Positions 760 to 27,613 of a DNA stretch of 32,830 nucleotides are shown one piece after another. Both the position numbers and the translations under genes were made by a program. Source of the stretch: Methanospirillum stamsii. GTDB lineage: Archaea > Halobacteriota > Methanomicrobia > Methanomicrobiales > Methanospirillaceae. The DNA lies in assembly GCF_003173335.1 (NCBI RefSeq), contig NZ_QGMZ01000009.1, forward strand, positions 1-32,830, read 5' to 3'. Position 1 is the first letter of the stretch, and each line of letters starts with the position of its first letter. A model generated the notes under the pieces. The model did not search any database and was not told where the DNA came from. It worked only from the letters and a program-made list of their open reading frames with translations.

Positions 760-3291
760 ATGAGGAAACCACAGATGATATCAGTAATCTATGTTGACGA
801 TGAACCGTTCCTTCTTGAGATATGCAAATTATTCCTCGAGCGTTCCGGGGATATCCAGGTTACCACCTCTGTTTCTGCAAAAAACGCTCTTAAAATTTTA
901 TCTTCCAGATCATTTGATGCAATTATTTCTGATTACCAGATGCCCGGCATGGATGGGATAGAATTTTTAAAAGTAATCAGAAAAGACGACAAAATAATCC
1001 CATTTATAATTTTTACCGGCAGAGGAAGGGAAGAAATAGTCATTGAAGCCTTAAAAGAAGGGGCAGATTTTTATCTTCAAAAAGGAGGGGATCCAAAGGC
1101 CCAGTTTGCAGAACTGAGAAATAATGTTGAACAGATAGTCCGGAGAAGAAAAGCCGAGTCTTCTCTTGTGTACCGTGAAACATTATACCGGACACTTTTT
1201 GAGAGTGCGAATGACGCCATTGTTCTGATGGAACATGACCGGGTGATTGAGTGTAATCACCGGACAGAGGATCTGTTTTCTCTCAGTTCAGAAGATCTCA
1301 TCGGGCACAATCCGGTAGAATTCTCTCCTGAATATCAATCTGATGGAAGTTTATCCGCGAAGAAATCTGTTCATCTGCTTAATGAGGCTCTTTTAGGTAT
1401 TCCACAATTATTTGAATGGAGATTTTTAAAACCGGATGGTAATACTTTTGATACAGAAGTAAGTCTGAACCGGATTGAAATGATTGGAACGTTCTTCCTT
1501 CTGGCAATTATCCGGGATATTTCTGTTCATAAAAAAATACTTGGAGAATTGGAACAAAAAACCCAGGATCTCGCTGCTTCGTATGAAGAAATACTGGCAA
1601 CAGAAGAGGAATTAAAAACTCAGTATGATGCACTCTTTCAAAGTGAACGAGCAATGAGAATGAGTGAGGAAAAACTCCGTTCAACTCTTGCTTCCATGGA
1701 TGACCTGGTCCTGACACTGGATATGAATGGTGTTTTTCTTGATGCGTATAAAGAAAACCGGGGAGATTACTTTATCTCACCCGAAGTTTTCATCGGCCAT
1801 CATTATCAGGAAGTCCTACCACCCGACTTAAGCAAATCATTAGGCTCTGCGTTTGATCAGGTAATCGCTTCCGGAAAAACTGAGAAGATCACCTACTCCA
1901 TGAAGTTTAATGACGAAATTCGTTATTTTAATTCAAAATTGTCAATCCGGATGGATGGGGAAGGAAACCCTGCCGGAGTGACCATTGTTGCCAGGGATAT
2001 CACAGAAGAGAAGAAGATCCTACTGGAACTTGCTGAGAGTAAGGTAAAACTTGAGGCGGTAATTCAAAGTTCTCCCATTCCCCAGTTTGTAATTGATAAC
2101 AATCACCAGGTTATTCACTGGAATGCTGCTCTTTCTGAATATAGTGGTATTTCAGATACCGAAATTATTGGTACAAAAGATCAATGGCGTGCATTTTATC
2201 CCGAAAAACGCCCCTGTCTTGCAGACCTTCTCATTGATGAAAAACCTGAACTCGTGGATGAATGGTACAAAGGAAAATATGCTCGATCAGAACTGGTCAA
2301 AGGAGCTTTTGAGGCAGTAGACTTCTTCCCCCGGATGGGAAAGGCCGGGATATGGCTTTATTTTACCGCTGCAACGATTCGGGATAATAAAGGAGAGATA
2401 ATCGGTGCGGTTGAAACACTCGAGGATATCACCGAACAAAAAGAGGCCTATCGTAAGTTACAACATGAAGAGACAATATTAAATGCAGTTATCCAGGTAT
2501 CTCCGGTACCTGAATTTGTAATTGATAAAAACCACCGGGTTATGTTTTGGAATCAGGCTCTTTCCCGGTACAGTAACATTCCTGCAGAAGAAATGGTCGG
2601 TTCTAATCAGCAATGGCGCGCATTTTACCCGGAGGAACGCCCCTGTCTTGCCGATCTCCTGGTGGATAATGCAACAAAAGAATTCAGTACCTGGTACAAC
2701 GATAAGGTTTCACCTTCAAAACTGATTCCTGGTGCGTTTGAAGCCAGTGATTATTTTCCAAATCTGGGGGCGGAAGGGCGGTGGCTGTATTTTACTGCAT
2801 CTCCCATCCGTGATAAAAATGGGGAAATTATCGGTGCTGTAGAGATACTGGAGGATATTTCAGAGCAGAAGCGTGCCAGGGAAGAATTGTTGTCGGTATC
2901 CAGGTACCTTGAGAGTATCATTCAAAATGCACTGGTTTTTGTGATGGTACTTGATGTTGATACGAATGTGCTCATCTGGAATACGGCTGCTGAAGAAATT
3001 AGTGGCTATGCTGCCTCTGAAGTAATTGGTTCCAGGTGGATATGGAGTGCCCTCTATCCGGACCCGGAGTACCGGAAAAAAATTACCGGGGAGCTTGTCA
3101 GGATTATCTCAGAAAATCTCTTCCTGACCAATTTCACCACCCGGATCCGGGCAAAAGATCAGAGTGACCATATAATTACCTGGAATACCAGGGCACTTCG
3201 GAATGATGATGGTGATATAACCGGATATGTAGCAGTTGGGACTGAGTTTAAACCCTGTGTGTGTCCTGACAAAAAGAATCTCAATCCCTAA
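760..3291 (+). CDS. Response regulator with five PAS domains, no kinase domain
   Basis: Cytosolic protein of 843 residues. The receiver domain (residues 6-125) has acidic pocket D13-D14, phospho-acceptor D58 in SDYQMPGMDG, T86 in FTGRG and K108. Five PAS domains follow: about 138-255, 306-420, 430-562, 573-705 and 710-835, with a helical linker at 257-305. PAS3 and PAS4 are near copies of each other. The protein ends just after PAS5 with a Cys-containing tail (CVCPDKK), so there is no HisKA/HATPase output. It may pass signals by protein contact or receive phosphate from a nearby kinase. The start could be ATG 760 or ATG 775, which has AGGA nine bases upstream; M-I-S-V-I-Y-V-D-D from 775 fits the receiver family well. 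No membrane segment is seen. Confidence 0.9.
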   Translation: MRKPQMISVIYVDDEPFLLEICKLFLERSGDIQVTTSVSAKNALKILSSRSFDAIISDYQMPGMDGIEFLKVIRKDDKIIPFIIFTGRGREEIVIEALKEGADFYLQKGGDPKAQFAELRNNVEQIVRRRKAESSLVYRETLYRTLFESANDAIVLMEHDRVIECNHRTEDLFSLSSEDLIGHNPVEFSPEYQSDGSLSAKKSVHLLNEALLGIPQLFEWRFLKPDGNTFDTEVSLNRIEMIGTFFLLAIIRDISVHKKILGELEQKTQDLAASYEEILATEEELKTQYDALFQSERAMRMSEEKLRSTLASMDDLVLTLDMNGVFLDAYKENRGDYFISPEVFIGHHYQEVLPPDLSKSLGSAFDQVIASGKTEKITYSMKFNDEIRYFNSKLSIRMDGEGNPAGVTIVARDITEEKKILLELAESKVKLEAVIQSSPIPQFVIDNNHQVIHWNAALSEYSGISDTEIIGTKDQWRAFYPEKRPCLADLLIDEKPELVDEWYKGKYARSELVKGAFEAVDFFPRMGKAGIWLYFTAATIRDNKGEIIGAVETLEDITEQKEAYRKLQHEETILNAVIQVSPVPEFVIDKNHRVMFWNQALSRYSNIPAEEMVGSNQQWRAFYPEERPCLADLLVDNATKEFSTWYNDKVSPSKLIPGAFEASDYFPNLGAEGRWLYFTASPIRDKNGEIIGAVEILEDISEQKRAREELLSVSRYLESIIQNALVFVMVLDVDTNVLIWNTAAEEISGYAASEVIGSRWIWSALYPDPEYRKKITGELVRIISENLFLTNFTTRIRAKDQSDHIITWNTRALRNDDGDITGYVAVGTEFKPCVCPDKKNLNP
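2056..2876 (+). repeat. Tandem duplication of a PAS module inside the gene
   Basis: Two units, 2056-2447 and 2485-2876, lie exactly 429 bases (143 codons) apart. Both contain AVIQ-x-SP-x-P-x-FVID, QWRAFYPE-x-RPCLADLL and RWLYFTA or IWLYFTA-type segments, then IRD-x-x-GEIIGAVE and ED-I-x-EQK. DNA identity is high around 2182-2240 and 2611-2669, so this is an internal gene duplication of moderate age. Confidence 0.85.
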
Positions 3292-5733: not shown

Positions 5734-7995
5734 ATGCCTGAGATGATCAGGATATCTGGAATTTTTGGTTTTCATTCAGGAAACAGGATCATGTCAGAAG
5801 TGACGCAAGAAGATGGAGCCCTGGAGTTGATTTCGGTCCTCTATGTGGATGATGAAGAGGATCTTCTGGATATTTCTAAAATTTTCCTTGAGAGATCAGG
5901 GGAATTTCATGTAGATATCGTGAACTCTGCTGTCACTGCTTTACAATCTGATAAGATCCTATCCTATGATGCCATTATTTCTGACTATATGATGCCTGAA
6001 ATGGATGGTATTGCATTTTTAAAATCTGTCCGGACATTATCACGTGATATGCCGTTTATCCTGTTCACCGGCAGGGGCAGGGAAGAGGTTGTCATCGAAG
6101 CAATCAATAACGGAGCCGATTTTTATCTTCAGAAAGGGGGCAACCCAAAAGCACAGTTTGCCGAACTGATGCATAAAATTCGTCAGGTTGTCCGGAGAAG
6201 GCAGGCAGAAAAAGACTTAAGCGAACAGAGAATTTTCAATGATGCCATCTTTACCAGTGTACCTGGTCTTTTGTATATCTATGATGAAGATGGCCACCTC
6301 ATCCGGTGGAATAAAAACAATGAGTCTCTTACCGGGTTTACCACTGAAGAACTTCAGGGGAAACATTTTCTTGACTGGTTTGAAGATCCTGCAGATAAAG
6401 AACAGATAAAAAAGGCAGTGGAACAGACTTTTCGTGAGGGTTCCGGTAGTGCACAGGCAAATATCTCCACCAAAGACGGGAGGAAGATCCCTCATTTTTT
6501 AACCGCTGTGAGAGTTGAAATTGGGGATAAAAAATATTTTACCGGAATAGGCATTGACATATCACCTCTGAAAGAAGCAGAAAAAACAATACAGGAGCGG
6601 GATGAACAATATCGCCGGTTTGCAAGAAATGCACCGGATATGATTTACCGGTATAGTATTACCGAGGGACGATTTTTATTTGTAAATCCGGCATCATCTG
6701 TTCTTACAGGGTATCTGCCAGAGGATTTTTACCAGGATCCGGTATTGTTTGACCGGATTATTCATCCTTCCTGGAAAGAGGTGCTGGATGAAAAAAAGCG
6801 TGAATTATTTGAGGGGCACAGTCCGATCATTTTTGAATACCAGATTATCGACAAAGATGGGAAAAATCACTGGTTAAATCAAAGAAAAGTCCTGGTTAGG
6901 GATGAAGCCGGTAAACCGGTTGCCATTGAAGGAATCATCACCGATATCAGCTCGATAAAACAGGCAGATGAAGAACTCAGGAGAAGTGAACAACGATTTG
7001 ATGCCGTGACAAGGAATGCCGGTTCATGGATTTGGGAGATCGATACCGAGGGGATATACCGGTATTCAAATCCGGCAGTATTTGATATTCTTGGATATCA
7101 TCCGGATGAAATCGTTGGAAAAATGCATTTTCTTGATACATTCGACCCATCTATCCGGGATACTGTTGCAGAACTTTCATTGACGATATTCAGGGAACGT
7201 GAGAATTTTAAAAATTTTGAAAATCTGAACCGACATAAAGATGGTTCAATTGTCCTTCTCAGTACCTGTGGCTCTCCGGTCTATAATGAGAAGGGAGAGT
7301 TTAGTGGGTACTGGGGGGTTGATGAAGATATCACCGAACAGGTTAAAACCCGCGATGCTCTCAAGCAGGCAAATCAGAAACTTTCCATGCTTGCAAGTGT
7401 AACCAGGCATGACATTCTGAATAAGATTGCGGTTATTAAAGGATATCTTGCAGTTGTGAGTATGGAATTTGAGACTCCTGAACTCATGGAATATGTCCGG
7501 ATGATGAAGTCTGCTACGGCAAGTATCCAGTCCCAGATTGAGTTTACCCGCACATATCAGAATTTAGGGACCGAAGAGCCGGTGTGGATAAATTTACAGT
7601 CAATTCTTCCGGTATCACAGGTGCCTGATGAGATAATTATGTCGATACATCTCCCTGATGTCGCGGTGTTTGCTGACCAGATGATTGAAAAAGTCTTTTT
7701 TAATCTTCTTGATAATTCTACACGGCACGGAAAGAACGTAACTGAATTAGTGGTTTCCGGAAGAGAGCAGCAGGATGGTTTTCTTGTCACATGGGAGGAT
7801 AATGGTGTCGGTATTCCTGAAGAAGAGAAAAATCTGATTTTTGAACGGGGATATGGCAAGAACACCGGACTGGGGCTTTTTCTTGCCAGAGAAATATTGT
7901 CACTTACCGAAGCTGTAATAACTGAAACCGGAGAGCCTGGAAAAGGAGCAAGGTTTGAACTTCTCTTTTCGAAAGGAAACTATAGAATTTTATAA
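5734..7995 (+). CDS. Receiver-PAS-PAS-PAS hybrid sensor histidine kinase
   Basis: Cytosolic protein of up to 753 residues. The receiver domain (about 32-150) has D39-D40, phospho-acceptor D84 (SDYMMPEMDG), FTGRG, and the same long QKGGNPKAQFAEL stretch as the protein at 760. PAS domains lie at about 165-285, 290-410 and 415-540. The dimerisation helix has H559 in TRHDILNKI, then EFTRTYQNLG with P-V-W. The HATPase has N-box NLLDNSTRHG, DNGVGIP and GYGKNTGLGLFLAREI. It probably autophosphorylates at H559 and signals to receiver proteins. The start may be ATG 5791 (MSEVTQ, with AGGA upstream), since the first 19 residues are not family-like. It is a paralogue of the broken kinase at 14-610. Confidence 0.92.
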   Translation: MPEMIRISGIFGFHSGNRIMSEVTQEDGALELISVLYVDDEEDLLDISKIFLERSGEFHVDIVNSAVTALQSDKILSYDAIISDYMMPEMDGIAFLKSVRTLSRDMPFILFTGRGREEVVIEAINNGADFYLQKGGNPKAQFAELMHKIRQVVRRRQAEKDLSEQRIFNDAIFTSVPGLLYIYDEDGHLIRWNKNNESLTGFTTEELQGKHFLDWFEDPADKEQIKKAVEQTFREGSGSAQANISTKDGRKIPHFLTAVRVEIGDKKYFTGIGIDISPLKEAEKTIQERDEQYRRFARNAPDMIYRYSITEGRFLFVNPASSVLTGYLPEDFYQDPVLFDRIIHPSWKEVLDEKKRELFEGHSPIIFEYQIIDKDGKNHWLNQRKVLVRDEAGKPVAIEGIITDISSIKQADEELRRSEQRFDAVTRNAGSWIWEIDTEGIYRYSNPAVFDILGYHPDEIVGKMHFLDTFDPSIRDTVAELSLTIFRERENFKNFENLNRHKDGSIVLLSTCGSPVYNEKGEFSGYWGVDEDITEQVKTRDALKQANQKLSMLASVTRHDILNKIAVIKGYLAVVSMEFETPELMEYVRMMKSATASIQSQIEFTRTYQNLGTEEPVWINLQSILPVSQVPDEIIMSIHLPDVAVFADQMIEKVFFNLLDNSTRHGKNVTELVVSGREQQDGFLVTWEDNGVGIPEEEKNLIFERGYGKNTGLGLFLAREILSLTEAVITETGEPGKGARFELLFSKGNYRIL

Positions 7996-16204: not shown

Positions 16205-16498
16205 TTAAATCTCTCTAATCTCAAACCAGGGGAGGTCATCTTCCGGATGAGTAGGATGGTTTTCTGTCGGATATATGGTATTTTTATTAATCTCAAACCA
16301 TGCAACGCTCTGATCCGGATTATCCGGATGACCTGAAGCAGGGTAAATATTGCCATCGCGGATCTCAAACCAAGGCTCCGGTTCCTGGGGATTGGTAGGA
16401 TGATAAAGCGTAGTATAGATCTCATTTTCGATTATCTCGAACCATGGGACAGGTTCTGACGGGTTTGTCGGATGAAAGGATGTGGTGTAAATATTCAT
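16205..16498 (-). CDS. Mini-protein of four 24-residue W-F-E-I repeats
   Basis: Protein of 97 residues made almost entirely of four repeats of about 24 residues. The consensus is I-Y-(P/T)-T-x-x-H-P-T-N-P-x-x-x-x-P-W-F-E-I-(R/x)-(D/E/x)-x-(N/x). Each unit has one invariant H-P, a P five residues before or near W, and the W-F-E-I end. It is Pro- and acid-rich with no Cys and no signal peptide. It may form a four-bladed or four-fold closed beta structure. I do not recognise a family with certainty. It is convergent with the hydrolase, 25 bases apart. The weak ribosome-binding site (AGAGG about 13 bases upstream) leaves the start slightly uncertain. Confidence 0.75.
   Translation of the reverse strand: MNIYTTSFHPTNPSEPVPWFEIIENEIYTTLYHPTNPQEPEPWFEIRDGNIYPASGHPDNPDQSVAWFEINKNTIYPTENHPTHPEDDLPWFEIREI
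16208..16495 (-). repeat. Four tandem coding repeats of about 72 bases
   Basis: The units encode residues 2-24, 25-48, 49-72 and 73-97 of the mini-protein. They are diverged at DNA level but keep the 72-base phase, with I-Y near the start and W-F-E-I near the end of each. Confidence 0.8.
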
Positions 16499-17713: not shown

Positions 17714-18601
17714 TTATGCCGTAAATCCCCGGTATTTTCCTTCCGGAATGGTCATTTCAAATCTGACTCCAACTCCCGGTTCTCCTTTTTCCACGATGGT
17801 AATCCCGGTTATTGATAAAATTTCCCTGATAAGAAAGAGTCCAAGACCGGTGTTTTTTCCAAATCCTTTCTCAAATATTTTCTCTTTTTCATTACCTGCA
17901 ACTCCCCCGCCATCATCCTCATAGGTCACGAGAAGGGTTTCTCCCTCAGTCCAGGATGAAAACCGGATTTTTGTGAGATTCATTCCATGCCGGATGGAAT
18001 TTTCAACCAGGTTATATATCACTTTCTCAAGCATCCGGTCGGCATAGATTTCAAGCCGTCCAAGTTCTGAAGTAAGCGTGAATCCTGAAAGAAGGCTTTT
18101 TATTATAGGAGATTGTATGATAGCCTCAATATTTTGCCATGCCGGAGCTTCCACTCCAAGATCCTGATATAGTCCGGTGAACTGAATGATATTTTTGATT
18201 TCTTCACTAGATTTCATCACCGCTTCAAGCTGCCTCTTGAGTTCCTCATCGGTTATGCTGTCACGAACATTTTCACTGTAAAAGGATGTTATCATCACAC
18301 GGTTTAGGATATCATGCCTTGTTATGCTTGACAGGATCTTTAACTTATTATTAACCTGAGTTATGGCATCATGGGCTTTTTTGATCTCATCACGGGATTT
18401 TTTCAGTTCCTCGTTTGAATGAATCAGGTCTGCCTGGTACCGGTCTGCAATTCCCATAACTCTGTCAAATCGCTCCTGCAGTTTCAGATAGGCGCCTAGT
18501 GCCTCTTCCAATTCCCTGGCTAAAGGGGAGTTACCCCCCTTCAGTTCCTCTATTCTCTGGGGAATCATCTCCGGATGAAAAAGTGGATCTTCTTTTGTCA
18601 T
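17714..18601 (-). CDS. Cytosolic histidine kinase, proposed output of the Sia-like switch
   Basis: Protein of 295 residues with no membrane segment and no PAS domain. Residues about 25-88 form a long helical stalk with a Y-L-K-L-x-x-R-F-x-R-V-x-x-I-A-D-R-Y-Q pattern. H96 in I-T-R-H-D-I-L-N-R-V is the phospho-acceptor. FTGLYQDLG with P-A-W matches the paralogues at 14-610 and 5734-7995. The HATPase has N-box NLVENSIRHG, D-D-G-G-G-V and GFGKNTGLGLFLIREI. Its ATG overlaps the stop of the SiaC-like gene (ATGA), so translation is coupled. It occupies the place of the diguanylate cyclase SiaD in the Pseudomonas operon. I infer that the DUF1987 protein binds its stalk and controls kinase activity. 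Confidence 0.9.
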   Translation of the reverse strand: MTKEDPLFHPEMIPQRIEELKGGNSPLARELEEALGAYLKLQERFDRVMGIADRYQADLIHSNEELKKSRDEIKKAHDAITQVNNKLKILSSITRHDILNRVMITSFYSENVRDSITDEELKRQLEAVMKSSEEIKNIIQFTGLYQDLGVEAPAWQNIEAIIQSPIIKSLLSGFTLTSELGRLEIYADRMLEKVIYNLVENSIRHGMNLTKIRFSSWTEGETLLVTYEDDGGGVAGNEKEKIFEKGFGKNTGLGLFLIREILSITGITIVEKGEPGVGVRFEMTIPEGKYRGFTA

Positions 18602-18981
18602 GATTGCCCTGACTGATCTTCCGGTTTAATGATAAAGGGTATGCTCACGTCTTCTCCGAATTCCAGGGCGATTTCATGTGATCGTTCATTTTCAGGATCA
18701 TAATACCAGATAGCAGAGATATTGGATCCCTTTTCTGCAGCTTCTGCAAGCATGTCCATGATATCCAGCAGACATTTAGTACTGCTTGAATTCATATACC
18801 TGATATTGACTTCGATGGTGACCTGGTCATAATTTGGTAATTCAGTGTTAAGCCAGGTAAATACCGGTTCAAAGAACGCAAATGTGTTCTCCGGGTATGA
18901 TTCTCCGGAAATTTTCAGTTTTTTAGATTCCTCTGAAAAGAAAATCCGGGGTGAGGTTTTTGTTGCCGGAATATCAAGCAT
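18598..18981 (-). CDS. SiaC-like DUF1987 regulatory phosphoprotein
   Basis: Protein of 127 residues from ATG 18981 (MLDIPATKTSPRIFF). It matches the DUF1987/SiaC family: P-A-T-x-x-S-P-x-I-x-F, I-S-G-E-S-Y-P-E-N, F-F-x-P-V-x-x-W-L, and I-R-Y-M-N-S-S-S-T-K-C-L-L-D. With this start, Thr falls exactly at 68, the residue phosphorylated by SiaB in Pseudomonas aeruginosa SiaC. The open frame extends to 19005, but the start at 18981 has A-G-G-G-G-G-A upstream and overlaps the end of the SiaB-like gene by eight bases, which fits coupled translation. Unphosphorylated SiaC binds and activates its partner in Pseudomonas; here the partner is probably the downstream histidine kinase. Confidence 0.92.
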   Translation of the reverse strand: MLDIPATKTSPRIFFSEESKKLKISGESYPENTFAFFEPVFTWLNTELPNYDQVTIEVNIRYMNSSSTKCLLDIMDMLAEAAEKGSNISAIWYYDPENERSHEIALEFGEDVSIPFIIKPEDQSGQS

Positions 18982-19531
18982 CAGGTTCCCCCTGGATTGT
19001 AACAATCAAACTGAAAAAGTCACAATTCTCATCAATTTCATCAAACTGATAGTCCAGTTTTTCTTTTGCATGCCGTGCAATTTCGATAAGTCCGAGTCCG
19101 GCTCCAAGAGATACGGGATTTCGTTCTTTTCTTAATTGTTCCTTGTAGAGCTTTTTCAAACCTGCCTGATCAAGATTATTTATCTGTTCCAGCCGTGCAA
19201 GAAGAGTTGGGACATCCTGTTTTCGTATACTGTTTCCTGATGAGACCTGGTAATTACCGTCTTTATTGCTGATGACCAGAATCGTTGACCAGTATTTTTC
19301 TTCTAACCCGGATATTTTCAGATAATTCCTGACATTTTGTGTCTGTTCGATATATACTGCAAAAACATCAGAGATAGTTCCTTTTCCATGCTTATTATCT
19401 ACAAGGTACTGCCTGATTGCATTTCCTATCTCTTCAATGATACTGTTGGTAAGTGAACCATTGAAACTGATGAGAACGCCTTTCCGGTTGAATATTTCTT
19501 TTAATTGTAACAAATCACACATGTCCCTCAT
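18974..19531 (-). CDS. SiaB-like protein kinase (DUF6272 family)
   Basis: Protein of 185 residues of the SiaB type, a GHKL-fold kinase distantly like anti-sigma factor kinases. F-N-G-S-L-T-N-S-I-I-E-E-I-G is the early segment; the C-terminal half has P-V-S-L-G-A-G-L-G-L-I-E-I-A-R as the ATP-lid-like G-box. It should phosphorylate the SiaC-like protein encoded next, at Thr68. It overlaps the upstream phosphatase gene by 17 bases and the next gene by 8. The start may be ATG 19531 or ATG 19522 (M-C-D-L-L-Q), which has a better spaced GAGGGG upstream. There is no membrane segment. Confidence 0.88.
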   Translation of the reverse strand: MRDMCDLLQLKEIFNRKGVLISFNGSLTNSIIEEIGNAIRQYLVDNKHGKGTISDVFAVYIEQTQNVRNYLKISGLEEKYWSTILVISNKDGNYQVSSGNSIRKQDVPTLLARLEQINNLDQAGLKKLYKEQLRKERNPVSLGAGLGLIEIARHAKEKLDYQFDEIDENCDFFSLIVTIQGEPDA

Positions 19532-21440
19532 CCCCTCTTACCATGAATCCGAATATCAGGAGGTCATCTTTTTGTATCCAGTTATTCTGGTATTCAATCA
19601 GATTTGAATATAGTTGTTCTTTCTGACCCGAGAGTGGTATATCAATCACCCGGAGAAGGTTTTTAAAACCTTTTCTCCCAAGACCAAATCCCTTTTCCCC
19701 TCCCGGGAGGTCAAATACTCCATCGGTTACCAGGTAAAACCGGCTTCCTGGATTGATTGTAATCTCCTGGTTGGATAGGGCAAACGCTCTTTTATTAGAC
19801 GAAAAGCCCAGATGGACATGCTCTCCATCTATTTCTTTCACCTCTCCATCATTCATCACAAAAAGAGGTAGCCCGGCTCCGGAAAAGATAAGCCGGTTAT
19901 TGTCTGGGTATACTTTGCAAAGAGCAATATCCAGTCCGTTTTGCAGGTGACTGCTTTCAGACTGGCTTTTGAGGGTTTCCTGGACAAGGATGTGAAGTTT
20001 ATTCAGAATGAAAGCTGGTGTCTCATCCGGATGCGTTTCAATTACTCTTGAGAGGAGGGCATTTACCATCATCGTCATGAATGCTCCCGGAACCCCATGA
20101 CCGGTGCAGTCAATAACTGCGATGTAATAACCGTCGTGTACTTCTTTGAAAAAATAAAAATCCCCGCCAACGATGTCCAGTGGCAGTGATAAGATGAGAT
20201 AATCTGAAAGATGTGTGTCAAGTTCAGCTTTTGCAGGCAGAATTGACTGCTGAATAAGCTTTCCATACTGGATTGAATCTACCAGTCTTTCCTGAGTTTC
20301 AGATAACCGGCGGTTCACGTTTTCAAGTTCGTTTTTTGATGTCAGAAGAGCTTTTTCACTCTCTCGTACCTGAACCAGTGCATGAACAAGGTCTTTTTTC
20401 GTTTTCCAGGTATAGATGAGCAGAAGAGACAGAACGGTGACTCCGATAATAATACCCAGGATAGTCTGCCAATAATGCTTTAATATTTCCTGTATGGTTG
20501 GTTTTGTTGTCTGATCATATGGAGGCAGATTGAGGGTTTTAAGTAATTCATGGACCGCTGTGTGATCCTGGGCAATGGCCCATCCTGATCCATGTAATGC
20601 AATGGCAGCAGGATCGTCTTTATCCATCTCAAGGAGGACTGTTGCAACCTTTTTACTCAGGTTAGGGTCAGTTCCGGTACCAGCAGCAAACGGCCATTCC
20701 GGGTACAGACTGGTTGAAAGGAGGTAGGGGAATCCGGGATAGGTATCATGCATGTCATTGAGGACTTTAATCTGGCTGGAATTTATCTTTCCTTCACCTG
20801 CCATCCGCTCTATCTGTGAACTCCGGACAGTTCCGGCATCCGCATCATTGTTAAGGACAGCAAGTACTGAATCATCCTGATTACCGGTAAACCGGAGCGA
20901 AGAAAAATCTGTAAGCGGATCAATTCCTGCCGTTTTTAATTCTTTCCAGGCCGCCTGCCATCCACCGAGAGAATCCTGGTCAACAGCAACAAAACGCTGT
21001 CCTTTCAGATCTTCAAGTCTTATGATGTCATCACGGTCAGACCTTGTAAAAATAACCCCGCCAAAATAGGTTTCAGGTTTGGTTTTACCAGGTACCTGCA
21101 GGTTTACTATTCTCTGGGCCAGACCATGATATTCAAGATATGAATATACTGAGGGGTTCGTTGCTACAAATGAGATTTCTCCAATTTTTGATGCATTCGT
21201 AATCTCATTAAAGTTAAATGGGACAATGCTAAAGTGGAGAGGGGCCAGGTTTTTCTCTAAGTACTCTGCAGTCGGTCCCCATTCCTGAAGGGCAATTTCA
21301 TCTCCCCGGTTTGCAAGCACCCCGATAAGGATAGGTGGCTGTTCTTCTTTCTCCTGAAAATCTGCAATACTTCCTGTAGCGAGCAGACTAAGAAGAATGA
21401 CAATGATACAGTATTGATACCCGGAGTGTTGTAATGACAT
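19515..21440 (-). CDS. SiaA-like membrane PP2C phosphatase with a PhnD-like sensor domain
   Basis: Protein of 641 residues. A signal anchor covers about 10-26. Residues 36-305 form a phosphate/phosphonate-type periplasmic binding domain (PhnD-like: V-A-T-N-P-S-V-Y-S, L-E-D-L-K-G-Q-R-F-V-A-V-D, D-A-G-T-V). One membrane helix covers about 326-345, a coiled coil about 350-390, and a SpoIIE/PP2C phosphatase 390-635. Metal-binding residues are visible in G-G-D427-F-Y-F, V-I-D444-C-T-G-H-G-V-P-G-A, V-T-D-G-V-F-D and K-D-D-L-L-I-F. The phosphatase and its S-I-Q-Y-G-K-L-I-Q-Q-S-I-L-P lead-in match the SiaA family. It should dephosphorylate the SiaC-like protein when an extracellular ligand is bound or lost; the ligand is unknown. 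It is first in the operon, with GGAAGG before ATG 21440. Confidence 0.92.
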   Translation of the reverse strand: MSLQHSGYQYCIIVILLSLLATGSIADFQEKEEQPPILIGVLANRGDEIALQEWGPTAEYLEKNLAPLHFSIVPFNFNEITNASKIGEISFVATNPSVYSYLEYHGLAQRIVNLQVPGKTKPETYFGGVIFTRSDRDDIIRLEDLKGQRFVAVDQDSLGGWQAAWKELKTAGIDPLTDFSSLRFTGNQDDSVLAVLNNDADAGTVRSSQIERMAGEGKINSSQIKVLNDMHDTYPGFPYLLSTSLYPEWPFAAGTGTDPNLSKKVATVLLEMDKDDPAAIALHGSGWAIAQDHTAVHELLKTLNLPPYDQTTKPTIQEILKHYWQTILGIIIGVTVLSLLLIYTWKTKKDLVHALVQVRESEKALLTSKNELENVNRRLSETQERLVDSIQYGKLIQQSILPAKAELDTHLSDYLILSLPLDIVGGDFYFFKEVHDGYYIAVIDCTGHGVPGAFMTMMVNALLSRVIETHPDETPAFILNKLHILVQETLKSQSESSHLQNGLDIALCKVYPDNNRLIFSGAGLPLFVMNDGEVKEIDGEHVHLGFSSNKRAFALSNQEITINPGSRFYLVTDGVFDLPGGEKGFGLGRKGFKNLLRVIDIPLSGQKEQLYSNLIEYQNNWIQKDDLLIFGFMVRGDEGHV

Positions 21441-21627: not shown

Positions 21628-23667
21628 TTATGATATCGAGAACTGCTCCATTCCAGTTGCAATCCGCTGAACTGCTCCGGCAGCCTCGGTAATTGCCTTA
21701 CTAATCTGATCGATGGTAGCGGTTACCTCTTCGGTCGCAGCTGCAGAATCGACCGCCTCTTTAGCGGTATCCTGAACAAGATTTCCAACTTCATGAACAC
21801 TTGCGGTTATCTCTTCAACGGCAGCAGCCTGTTCCTGTGCAGCTCCGGCAACTTCGGTAAGATTATTATAGACTGTATTAATTGCCTGTACAATTTCATT
21901 GAATACATCAAGTGTTTCAGAAACAGCTTCATTTCCGCTCTTTACTTCCGTTTCTGATACTTTCATTGATTCAGTTACTTTTTGAGACTTTTTCTGGAGA
22001 TTGCCAATGATCGTTGCGATATTCTCCGCGGATTTTTGTGATTCAAGTGCAAGAGACTTGACTTCATCGGCAACAACAGCAAACCCAAGCCCTGCATCTC
22101 CAGCTCTTGCTGCTTCGATTGCAGCATTCAGGGCAAGAAGGCCTGTCTGTTCTGCAATGCCGGTAATAACATCTACAATTTTACCAATCTCTTCCATCTG
22201 GCCGGCAATATCAGTAATTATCACTCCGGTTTCATCTATTGATTTGATGATTCCCTGCATTCCCTCTTCTGCTTTCCCGGCTAGCCTGACACCTTTTTCA
22301 GATAACTCAACCGTCTGTTTAGCCATACCTGAAGATTGTTCAGCTTTTGATGCAACAGAACTGACCGTACTGGAAAGATCTTCCATGGCTGTCAATGTCT
22401 GTTTAATGCCACTCCCACTTCGTTCTGCAAGGACACTTACCGATGATGAACTCTGGGCAATCATGTTTCCGGTACTTGCAACCTCTTCTATACTGGCGCT
22501 GGTCTCTTCCATGGATCCGTTGAGAATTTCAATCTCATTTTTAACTTCTCCGATAGCATCAGAGACGCATTTTCCACTGTTGTCAAGGGATTTTTTGAAT
22601 TTTTCAAAATCGCCCATCACGGAAGCATGGGTATCATACCTGACGGCAAAATTTCCTTTTGCAAACTCATTTACGATATTCATTGCTTCTTTTAAGGGAT
22701 GAACAAAAGCCTCAACCAGGTCATTCACACTCTGAACGGTTACTAAAAATTCTCCATCATATTCATCAGTAGTAATTTTTGCATTAAGATTGCCGTTTTT
22801 TACATCACCGGCGGTTTTCATGATAGCAGTATTTGCACGTTTAGATTTTTCCAGGTTCAGATTGATTTCATCATTCTGTTTTTCCAGGTTTTTAGTCATC
22901 TGGTCAAATGAAGATCCTATCTGAGTGATTTCATCATTTCCGGTAAGGCCAATCCGGTATGTAAGATTTCCTCTTCCGACTTCATCCATTCCTTTGAGCA
23001 GAAGATTGAACCTCCTGTTCAGGTTTCGTATGATAAACCAGGAAATAAAAAGAAGAATAATTGCACAAACGATGGTGATAATAATGGTAGCAAGAAGGAT
23101 ATTTACATACATCACATTGGAATCAACATAATACTGGTAGGCACTCTGGTTATTCAGTTCAACCAGTTTCTGTATCTCTCCCATAGTTTCAAGCCGTTTT
23201 GCGCCGGCTTTTGCATCTCTTAATTCAGATGCCTCTTTTGTTTTTCCTTCAAGAGTCAGAGTATTTACTCTTCCGACGATATCAAAATATTCTAATGAGT
23301 ATTGTTTTAATTTATCAATAACCTGTTTTTCTTCTTCGTTCATTGGAATGGATTCATATGCCGCTATTTTTTCATTGTATATGTCGATTTTTGGCAGCAT
23401 ATTTTCATTCAGCATCTGTTCTTTTTTCTTCATGTCTGATTCAAGACTGAATTTATAGCCTTCCACAGCATAATTGAGCATTTCATTGTAGGTCTGGATG
23501 GCCAAAACTGAATGTGAATATTTATTCTGGTATAACTGGGTCAGTTGTGAATTTATCTTATCAGTACTGTATATTCCAACAAATCCGACTATAGAGATGG
23601 CAAGGATCCCAACAATTACTAAAATTAGTAATTTTTTACCCATGGTTAAGTCATCTAACTGAATCAT
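21628..23667 (-). CDS. Methyl-accepting chemotaxis protein with four-helix-bundle sensor
   Basis: Protein of 679 residues: TM1 about 11-33, an extracellular helical sensor (4HB_MCP-like) about 34-186, TM2 187-213, HAMP about 213-265 and a further HAMP-like region to about 390. The signalling hairpin has its tip at about 504-535. The tip reads [16 protein letters not shown] then [13 protein letters not shown]; the usual T-N-L-L and G-R-G are T-G-L-L and G-L-G. It should control CheA with CheW, steering archaella-driven movement. There is no CheR-binding pentapeptide at the C-terminus. The sensor has no recognisable ligand pocket. A perfect 9-bp palindrome overlaps its TATA box. The start is ATG 23667, with a second possible start at residue 9. 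Confidence 0.93.
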
Positions 23668-25102: not shown

Positions 25103-27613
25103 ATGAATTTTGCCCGGATGGAATTTACATCAATCAAACACAAAATTCTCTTTTTTGGAGGAATAGCCTTATTATTGGTAGCGATAGGGATTATCGGGTA
25201 TGCGGCATACACGCTGAATTCTACCGCTGTAATCTCTGCTGAAGAGGGGCTTCAAAGTCTTGCAGAACATGAAAGTGCCCGTGTTTCTGCAATTCTTGAT
25301 GAACCATATACAACCTCTTCAGCTGTTGCAGCCCTTTTAGAGGGAGTCAGAAAGACAAATACAAATTTTCCCCGGTCTCAGGTTGTCCCGATGATAGAGG
25401 GTGTTCTTGCCGACCGTCCTCTTTACAATGGAGTATATACCATATGGGAACCAGGTGTGTTTGATGGGAGAGATGAAGAATATAAGTTAAAGGACGGATA
25501 TGACAAGACCGGGCGACTCCGGATTTACTGGTACCGGGATGCATCCGGTTCTATGGTCCGGAAAATCTATGATGAAACCAGTTCAGATCCCGGCAGTTAC
25601 TATGATGTACCCAAAAAGACCTTGAAAGGATCGGTCATTGATCCGTACATTGAGACCATGCAGGGAGATCCGGTCCTGATGGCATCACTGGTGACACCAA
25701 TTATCCGGGATGGACAATTTAATGGCATTGTCGCTGTGGATGTTGCGATACAGGACATTGAAGAGATTGCGGATTCTCTCGACATTTATGACGGGAATGG
25801 AAAACTTCTGGTTGTAAGTAATGGTGGTCTTATCGCTGGTGCAACAGGTGACCTTGATGTTGCAGGAAAACCCCTGGATGAGGTTGCTCCAGAGTTTAAT
25901 TTAGATCCCGGACTCATAACTAAGGTAATCTCCTCCGGAGAAACAAATACATTTGATGATGGAACCCACCTTGGTTCTATTGTTCCTATCTCGATAGGAG
26001 ACTCTGAAACACCCTGGGCGGTTGTGGTTTTTGCTCCGAAAAGTGTTGTTACAGCAGAAGCAACAGCCCAGACCTTTACCCTAATAGTAATTGGTCTTAT
26101 CATCTCCCTGATTGGTATGGGAGTGTTATATTTCGTAGCCCGTTCAATTGCACAACCAATTATTCATATAACCGGTGTTTCACAGGCTATTTCTGTGGGT
26201 GACCTGGAAACCCACATCGGTATCAATCAGAAAGATGAGATTGGAAAACTGGCAGATGCATTCCGGAATATGAGGCAGGGGCTGAAAGATAAAGCAAGTT
26301 CTGCAGCAGAAATTGCCCGGGGAAATCTTGATATAACAGTTCCTGTAGCCGGAGACAAGGATGTTCTTGGCCAGTCCATGATACAGATGGTATCATCCAT
26401 CGCTGATGTAACCTCGACTATGACCCGGCTTTCAGATAATGCATCGGTAGGAAACCTCTCCATCCGGGGAGATTCTTCTTTATTCCAGGGTGAGTATGCC
26501 CGGATAGTCGAAGGTGTCAATTCCACACTTGATGCCGTGATGGATCCATTGAACGAGGGTATGCGGCTAGCCGGTGAATATGCCCGGAATAACTTCAAAG
26601 CTCGTTTTAATCCGGAAGTGACTGTGCAGGGTGATTTTGTCAGGTTCAGGGATGCCATGGATGAAATCGGCATACAGGTTTCAGGGACGCTCCGGACGAT
26701 AACTGATAAGATGTCTGAACTGACTGCAAGTGCAGAAGAGGCACAGGCATCTGCAAATGAGGTTGCCCGGGGAGCGGTTGAGGTCGCAACGAATGCTGAA
26801 GCGGTATCACATAATGCGGACCGGGGAAGTGATGGAACCAGTCAGGTACTGAAAGCTATGGAAGATCTCTCGGTTGTGGTATCTGACATCTCAATGAAGA
26901 CCGATCAGGTCTCCCGTCTTGCAGCTGAAGGAAATCAACTCAGTAATGAAGGGCAGACCCTTGCAAAGAAAGCAGGGGAAGGAATGGAAGGCATCAAATC
27001 TGCAACTTCAGATATCGGAACTCTTATCAATAGTATAAAGGACCAGATGGAGCAGATAACAAGTGTTATTGCTATTATCACTTCGATTTCTGATGAAACA
27101 AATCTGCTTGCCCTTAATGCAGCAATAGAAGCGGCAAGAGCTGGAGAAGCAGGAAGAGGTTTTGCTGTCGTTGCTGATGAAGTAAAAGAACTTGCCACGG
27201 AGAGTCATCAATCCGCTGAAAAGATAGAACAGATGATTAATACCCTCAGCCGTGAATCAGCCCGGGCCACGGATATCATGAGTAAGGCACAAAATGAAGT
27301 CTCTGAGGGGTATACCGATGTGTTAAAGACACTGGATATCTTCCAGAAAATTGTGGTGATGCTCTCCGATGTAGCTCAGAACATCAGTGAAGTCGCTGCT
27401 GCATCAGAAGAACAGGCTGCTTCAGTTGAAGAAATCACGGCAAGTATCAACGAGGTCCATCAGATGATAAAAACCACCGCAGAGAACGCCGTTTCAAATG
27501 CTGCAATTTCTGAAGAATCGTCTGCTGCAGTCGACCAGATTCAGCGGGTTGTTGAGAATGTGAACGGGGTTATCACGATATTACAAAGAGAAATTGATAA
27601 ATTTACAATATAA
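25103..27613 (+). CDS. Methyl-accepting chemotaxis protein with dCache sensor
   Basis: Protein of 836 residues: TM1 about 15-36, an extracellular double-Cache domain about 45-310 ([38 protein letters not shown]), TM2 about 325-347, then a chain of HAMP-like modules to about 530. The signalling hairpin tip is canonical: [17 protein letters not shown] with [11 protein letters not shown]. The Cache pocket with the Y-W-Y-R-D and Asp pattern is of the class that often binds amino acids or other small organic ligands, but the ligand is not readable. The C-terminus ends D-K-F-T-I, with no pentapeptide. It partners CheA/CheW encoded elsewhere. A decayed sensor-kinase fragment follows directly after its stop. 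Confidence 0.95.

Follow-up and report, generated by a model that had tools for sequence, protein, structure and literature searches.

A predicted Sia-type partner switch with a histidine kinase as its putative output in the archaeon Methanospirillum stamsii

In Pseudomonas aeruginosa, the SiaABCD system (PMC8457831, PMC7647112) is made up of a PP2C phosphatase, a DUF6272 kinase and the switch protein SiaC, encoded in this order and followed by a stalk-bearing effector, the diguanylate cyclase SiaD. Contig NZ_QGMZ01000009.1 of the archaeon Methanospirillum stamsii carries four overlapping minus-strand genes (17714-21440), which form one operon and begin with the same siaA-siaB-siaC order, but the fourth encodes a histidine kinase (HK). 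The window analysed was this entire 32.8-kb contig (positions 1-32,830), and the host genome is 99.9% complete. A search of the host genome detected no GGDEF domain, whereas the same search was positive in 8 of 14 control genomes; for this genome, the result fits the premise of an initial annotation of this DNA, that archaea generally lack cyclic di-GMP (c-di-GMP) signalling. Which enzyme could a Sia switch control in such a cell? The sequence data described here make it probable that the operon specifies a Sia-type partner switch whose effector is the HK, docked to SiaC through an N-terminal stalk and activated by it.

The earlier assignment of the four proteins to the SiaA, SiaB, SiaC and HK families was borne out by Pfam searches, in which the PP2C, DUF6272 and SiaC profiles all matched (Table 1). 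The overlaps of 17, 8 and 4 bases given for the siaA/siaB, siaB/siaC and siaC/HK junctions proved exact with the siaC start at ATG 18981, from which the length of SiaC was counted; the mechanically called open reading frame (ORF) begins upstream, at TTG 19005. By sequence, the first three proteins have the composition of a SiaABC core: a PP2C phosphatase, a DUF6272 kinase and a SiaC with a predicted serine phospho-acceptor in the NTS/NSS loop. The fourth has the HATPase_c domain and the H-box histidine of an HK; of the two parts of a SiaD-family protein it has the N-terminal stalk with its predicted SiaC-binding motif, and the HK stands in place of the C-terminal GGDEF domain. Since the same four genes occur in identical order in the four other SiaC-bearing Methanospirillum genomes, the operon is not a chance arrangement. 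All four proteins have positional counterparts in related Methanospirillum loci, where none was seen for the proteins encoded in the flanks of the window operon.

The SiaA-like protein has a PhnD-like (Phosphonate-bd) sensor domain at its N-terminus; a transmembrane segment and a coiled coil connect this to a SpoIIE/PP2C domain, in which the acidic metal-binding motifs GGD, DCTGHG, TDG and KDD can be read. The PhnD-like domain, a periplasmic sensor by prediction, distinguishes this protein from SiaA of P. aeruginosa; SiaA of Methanospirillum hungatei M59 (L008) is built alike, whereas the five bacterial SiaA relatives tested have HAMP instead, one with a sub-threshold Cache match. The window SiaB shares the YIExTQN and GAGxGL motifs, which are near-invariant among the 20 SiaB proteins compared. 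Over the solved chain, SiaC shares 39% identity with its P. aeruginosa counterpart, and it matches PDB entries 6kko, 6kkp and 7e6g at 1.5e-24. At the 14 positions that contact SiaD, eight residues are identical and five conservatively replaced, the sole exception being I71, which is T68 in the window protein. The predicted phospho-acceptor Ser65 corresponds to P. aeruginosa Thr68 (Y-M-N-S65-S aligned with Y65-L-N-T68-S). The phospho-acceptor position, with Ser replacing Thr, and nearly all of the SiaD-contact surface are therefore kept in the window SiaC.

SiaC of P. aeruginosa recognizes SiaD at two motifs within its helical stalk, and the SiaD contacts include R74, K77, V78, R80, I81, S82, D83, R84, Y85, Q86, M88, R90 and D91 (PMC8457831). 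The N-terminus of the HK, ERFDRVMGIADRYQADL, was aligned to SiaD RRLEKVARISDRYQQMM, and 9 of the 13 contacting positions are identical or similar in the HK (R, R for K, V, I, A for S, D, R, Y, Q). When the HK N-terminus by itself was used to search the PDB, SiaD (7e6g) was found at E 1 (domain E 2.7), ranked below apolipoproteins. Because this match was too weak to be used alone, a family stalk profile was built from 33 stalks of bacterial GGDEF proteins encoded after siaC and searched against the 7893 ORFs of the collected loci. This GGDEF-only profile recovered every one of the five archaeal SiaC-linked HKs, with E-values from 5e-6 to 1.7e-4 (2.6e-5 for the window HK), and strong bacterial HK outputs scored 1e-17 to 2.5e-9. 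The profile matched genes after siaC in bacteria regardless of output type, and in the collection, which included about 25 loci with other Methanospirillum HKs, nothing but siaC-adjacent genes was detected below 0.8. When 12 Methanospirillum genomes were searched with a second stalk profile (A3), the top five matches were exactly the SiaC-linked HKs (6e-10 to 6e-6), that in the window's own genome lying at 18398-18526 (3.6e-8); the next-best match, an ABC transporter (G078, E 0.009), was taken as chance. The window HK stalk scored 21.4 bits, whereas none of 200 shuffles exceeded 4.7; for the N-termini of the archaeal HKs the scores were 19-24 bits, and their shuffles reached 4.3-6.7. These results support the presence on the HK of a SiaD-type stalk predicted to dock SiaC, and give the idea that the fourth gene is a SiaC-controlled output a basis beyond gene order.

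If the likeness were that of a generic coiled coil, the HK would be a native kinase and a mere bystander of the switch. The similarity extends over only about 45 residues, the PDB-wide domain match to SiaD is weak, and similar scores were reached in that search by coiled coils of no relation, apolipoprotein among them. Against this, the five SiaC-linked HKs are the only clear profile matches in 12 genomes rich in coiled-coil HKs, shuffled sequences score far lower, and across phyla the stalk accompanies siaC irrespective of the type of output domain, which makes a bystander very improbable.

The rest of the HK, with the H-box TRHDILN, the N, G1, F and G2 boxes recognized by eye and homology to the KdpD and EnvZ structures, is of local type. 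Residues ~70-291 are 50-63% identical to Methanospirillum HKs not encoded beside siaC, and the alignments to these unlinked HKs begin near residue 70, where the stalk ends. The HKs of three of the five genomes have a PAS domain inserted ahead of the dimerization and histidine phosphotransfer (DHp) domain, and the stalk, which precedes this PAS domain, is still N-terminal. Given that the core aligns only from about residue 70 and that the stalk stays first despite the inserted PAS domain, the stalk is a separate module on a native kinase. The HDILN-type cytosolic HKs of Methanospirillum (two-component system census, PMC5847659) are up to 63% identical in the DHp and ATPase core; the SiaC-linked HK differs from them in that a SiaD-type N-terminal stalk replaces, or precedes, the PAS domains. 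From stalk motif to His the spacing is 45 in the window HK (by count) and 45, 51, 58 and, with a PAS domain, 179 in bacterial HKs; with so few cases, no conserved heptad register between motif and His is claimed.

The origin of the kinase core also bears on the possibility that bacterial DNA contaminates the archaeal bin. The window is a whole contig, and SiaC above the family cut-off was detected in 5 of 12 Methanospirillum genomes and in none elsewhere in the family, class and phylum samples (108, 232 and 393 genomes), that is, in no other Halobacteriota sampled. Contamination was nevertheless rejected as extremely unlikely, because the HK core is of Methanospirillum type, the operon is present in four independent assemblies, in one of them on a 73-kb contig, and further HDILN-type archaeal HKs are encoded elsewhere in the window. 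In a tree of SiaB and SiaC, the archaeal sequences group together (98/90), nested in a larger clade (99/98) with sequences from spirochaetes and Opitutia; this pattern points to a single bacterial transfer. The nearest row is an Opitutia locus (L012, placement weakly supported, 93/64) whose output is a PAS-HATPase-REC HK; the donor may thus already have had an HK output, in which case the archaeal core would be a replacement. On the simplest reading, siaBC would have entered from bacteria in a single event and been combined with an archaeal kinase and, on SiaA, with a PhnD-like sensor.

How might the parts work together? A signal at the PhnD-like periplasmic domain would set the phosphatase activity of the SiaA PP2C domain, and Ser65 of SiaC would be phosphorylated by SiaB and dephosphorylated by SiaA. 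Unphosphorylated SiaC would grip the helical HK stalk (residues ~22-68), as with SiaD in Pseudomonas, where the Kd is about 50 nM, and would fix the parallel coiled coil leading into the DHp helix, turning on autophosphorylation of the HK; phosphorylated SiaC would release it. The HK would then pass the signal to an unlinked receiver protein. SiaC binding is known to stabilise the parallel active dimer of SiaD and to activate the enzyme (PMC8457831). In a structure model of the HK one continuous helix (residues 26-115; low confidence, mean pLDDT 60) runs from the stalk into DHp, and a clamp of this kind could therefore control the kinase. Both SiaC-HK binding and signalling to a response regulator are inferred from these comparisons.

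HKs toggle between kinase and phosphatase states when the helices of the coiled coil preceding DHp shift slightly. Such shifts allow either sign, and SiaC bound to the stalk might inhibit the kinase or favour its phosphatase state, the HK being switched on when phosphorylation triggers release; the binding surfaces would be equally conserved. However, in the sole characterised case SiaC activates SiaD via a parallel dimer (PMC8457831), and HKs are likewise parallel dimers. Activation is thus the more likely effect, and inhibition is considered rather unlikely.

Several observations weigh against a SiaC-activated HK of the kind proposed. Between SiaD and the HK, contact residues S82, R80, M88, R90 and D91 are changed to A, G, D, I and H, respectively, and in the PAS-type archaeal HKs Q86 is replaced by Y. 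P. aeruginosa SiaD has two stalk motifs whereas the window HK has one, as do several bacterial outputs. When one graft was compared with two for the two archaeal HK types, the tree preferred two origins, though not significantly (approximately unbiased test, p = 0.18), and the continuous helix comes from a model of low confidence. No response regulator is encoded next to the HK in the operon, and no candidate was sought; unlinked receiver proteins are abundant in such archaea (PMC5847659), which fits an operon of this composition.

An HK output is not specific to archaea: stalk-bearing HKs were found after siaC in Geobacteraceae and Desulfuromonadales (L016, L019, L022), Opitutia (L012), Spirochaetota and other bacteria. 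In the Spirochaetota and Verrucomicrobiota samples, where the phylum of each genome was inferred from its centre locus, the gene after siaC encodes an HK in L179 and the L186-L191 region and a GGDEF protein in L193 and L194; class III nucleotidyl cyclases, with or without GAF, directly follow siaC in L175-L178 and L180-L182 (Spirochaetota sample). A second PP2C/SpoIIE phosphatase occupies this position in L183 and L185. Most post-siaC outputs have the stalk consensus Y..L......K[ILMV]..[IL][SGAT]D..Q..L, with clear scores for cyclases (L180, L181), HKs (L179, L187, L188) and a PP2C (L183). Stalks are weak in L178, L186 and L076 (Blastocatellia); the latter two were not counted as evidence, nor was L185, whose stalk is within shuffle range (10.2 versus 10.8 bits). 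L192, in which no stalk was seen, was likewise left out of the evidence. The initial annotation had tied the HK output to the general lack of c-di-GMP signalling in archaea, as an apparent rewiring; a reading of the HK as peculiar to archaea for this reason is not supported by these bacterial HKs. In some of the bacterial groups with HK outputs after siaC, GGDEF, class III cyclase or PP2C outputs occur as well. HKs are thus not the sole alternative to a GGDEF output, class III cyclases and PP2C being others.

The stalk looks like a portable SiaC-docking tag across GGDEF proteins, class III cyclases, PP2C phosphatases and HKs. The cyclase stalks suggest SiaC control of cyclic-nucleotide synthesis, and the clear stalk of the L183 PP2C could point to a phosphatase cascade. 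In general, we think it likely that SiaC is an exchangeable, phosphorylation-controlled clutch for one standard stalk, which evolution has placed on four or more enzyme classes of separate descent and, once the switch had passed to archaea, also on a native kinase there. The stalk-bearing PP2C proteins after siaC in two bacterial loci also bear on the opposite direction of signalling, in which the HK, scaffolded by SiaC, would be an upstream or side input that alters SiaA or SiaB activity: stalk proteins could feed back on phosphorylation, and gene order alone does not fix the direction. This is improbable, as the stalk protein is the output in SiaABCD and as stalks on GGDEF, class III cyclase, HK and PP2C proteins best fit swappable outputs.

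Two further arrangements were seen. In the Geobacteraceae locus L016, two outputs are encoded after siaC, a two-stalk GGDEF protein and a one-stalk HK, and one Sia switch may drive both. In L046 and L139 a porin-like gene follows siaC and no stalk protein is present; L046 has a PP2C gene further downstream.

Table 1. Positions of the operon genes and of the predicted docking stalk in the window
Feature	Position	Strand	Length	Basis
SiaA-like membrane PP2C phosphatase	19515-21440	-	641 aa	Pfam PF12974 Phosphonate-bd 5.1e-37; PF07228 SpoIIE/PP2C 6.4e-19
SiaB-like predicted Ser/Thr kinase of SiaC	18974-19531	-	185 aa	DUF6272 PF19788 4.3e-40
SiaC (DUF1987), STAS-like switch protein	18598-18981	-	127 aa	PF09345 5.5e-36
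Cytosolic HK, predicted SiaC-controlled output	17714-18601	-	295 aa	HATPase_c PF02518 2.2e-14
Predicted SiaC-docking stalk in HK, residues ~22-68, core RFDRVMGIADRYQ	18398-18538	-		stalk profiles, shuffles

Elsewhere on the contig, a receiver (REC) protein with several PAS domains (760-3291, plus strand) and a REC-PAS-HK protein (5734-7995, plus strand) are possible two-component partners. Two chemoreceptors are encoded just upstream of the operon, at 21628-23667 (minus strand) and 25103-27613 (plus strand), of the 4HB_MCP type and the Cache type with HAMP, respectively. A 97-residue frame at 16205-16498 (minus strand) consists of four repeats of about 23 residues (IYTTxxHPTNPxEPxPWFEI-like) and has no Pfam match.

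Related switches are known. In HsbR-HsbA-HsbD and BgrSTUWV (named in PMC8457831) a phosphorylation-regulated STAS-type protein likewise controls an adjacent signalling enzyme, but these have ordinary STAS switch proteins and a c-di-GMP output. In RsbU/RsbV/RsbW and SpoIIE/SpoIIAA/SpoIIAB a PP2C phosphatase and a kinase also act on a STAS-like protein, the output there being a sigma factor held by the kinase itself; in the Methanospirillum operon, by contrast, the SiaB kinase and the effector HK are separate and there is no sigma factor. It has been suggested that DUF1987 proteins modulate adjacent proteins in bacteria (PMC8457831), and SiaABCD has been mentioned as a merger of Ser/Thr and c-di-GMP signalling (PMC9239204). 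Among the open-access papers searched, we found none joining DUF1987 with an HK, and none that describes a Sia switch in archaea or a stalk for SiaC docking on an HK, a class III cyclase or a PP2C.

If the predicted binding is confirmed, the operon would extend Sia-type partner switching beyond the bacteria, to a cell that lacks GGDEF proteins, and would link Ser/Thr phosphorylation to two-component signalling; it would also be a natural example of a regulatory handle grafted onto a new enzyme. A tag transplantable across four enzyme classes would allow the targets of DUF1987 proteins to be predicted by a simple rule, a stalk encoded after siaC, and the docking stalk is a possible part for engineered signalling. 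If SiaC does act as an exchangeable clutch, one input switch could act through c-di-GMP, cyclic nucleotides, two-component phosphorelays or Ser/Thr dephosphorylation.

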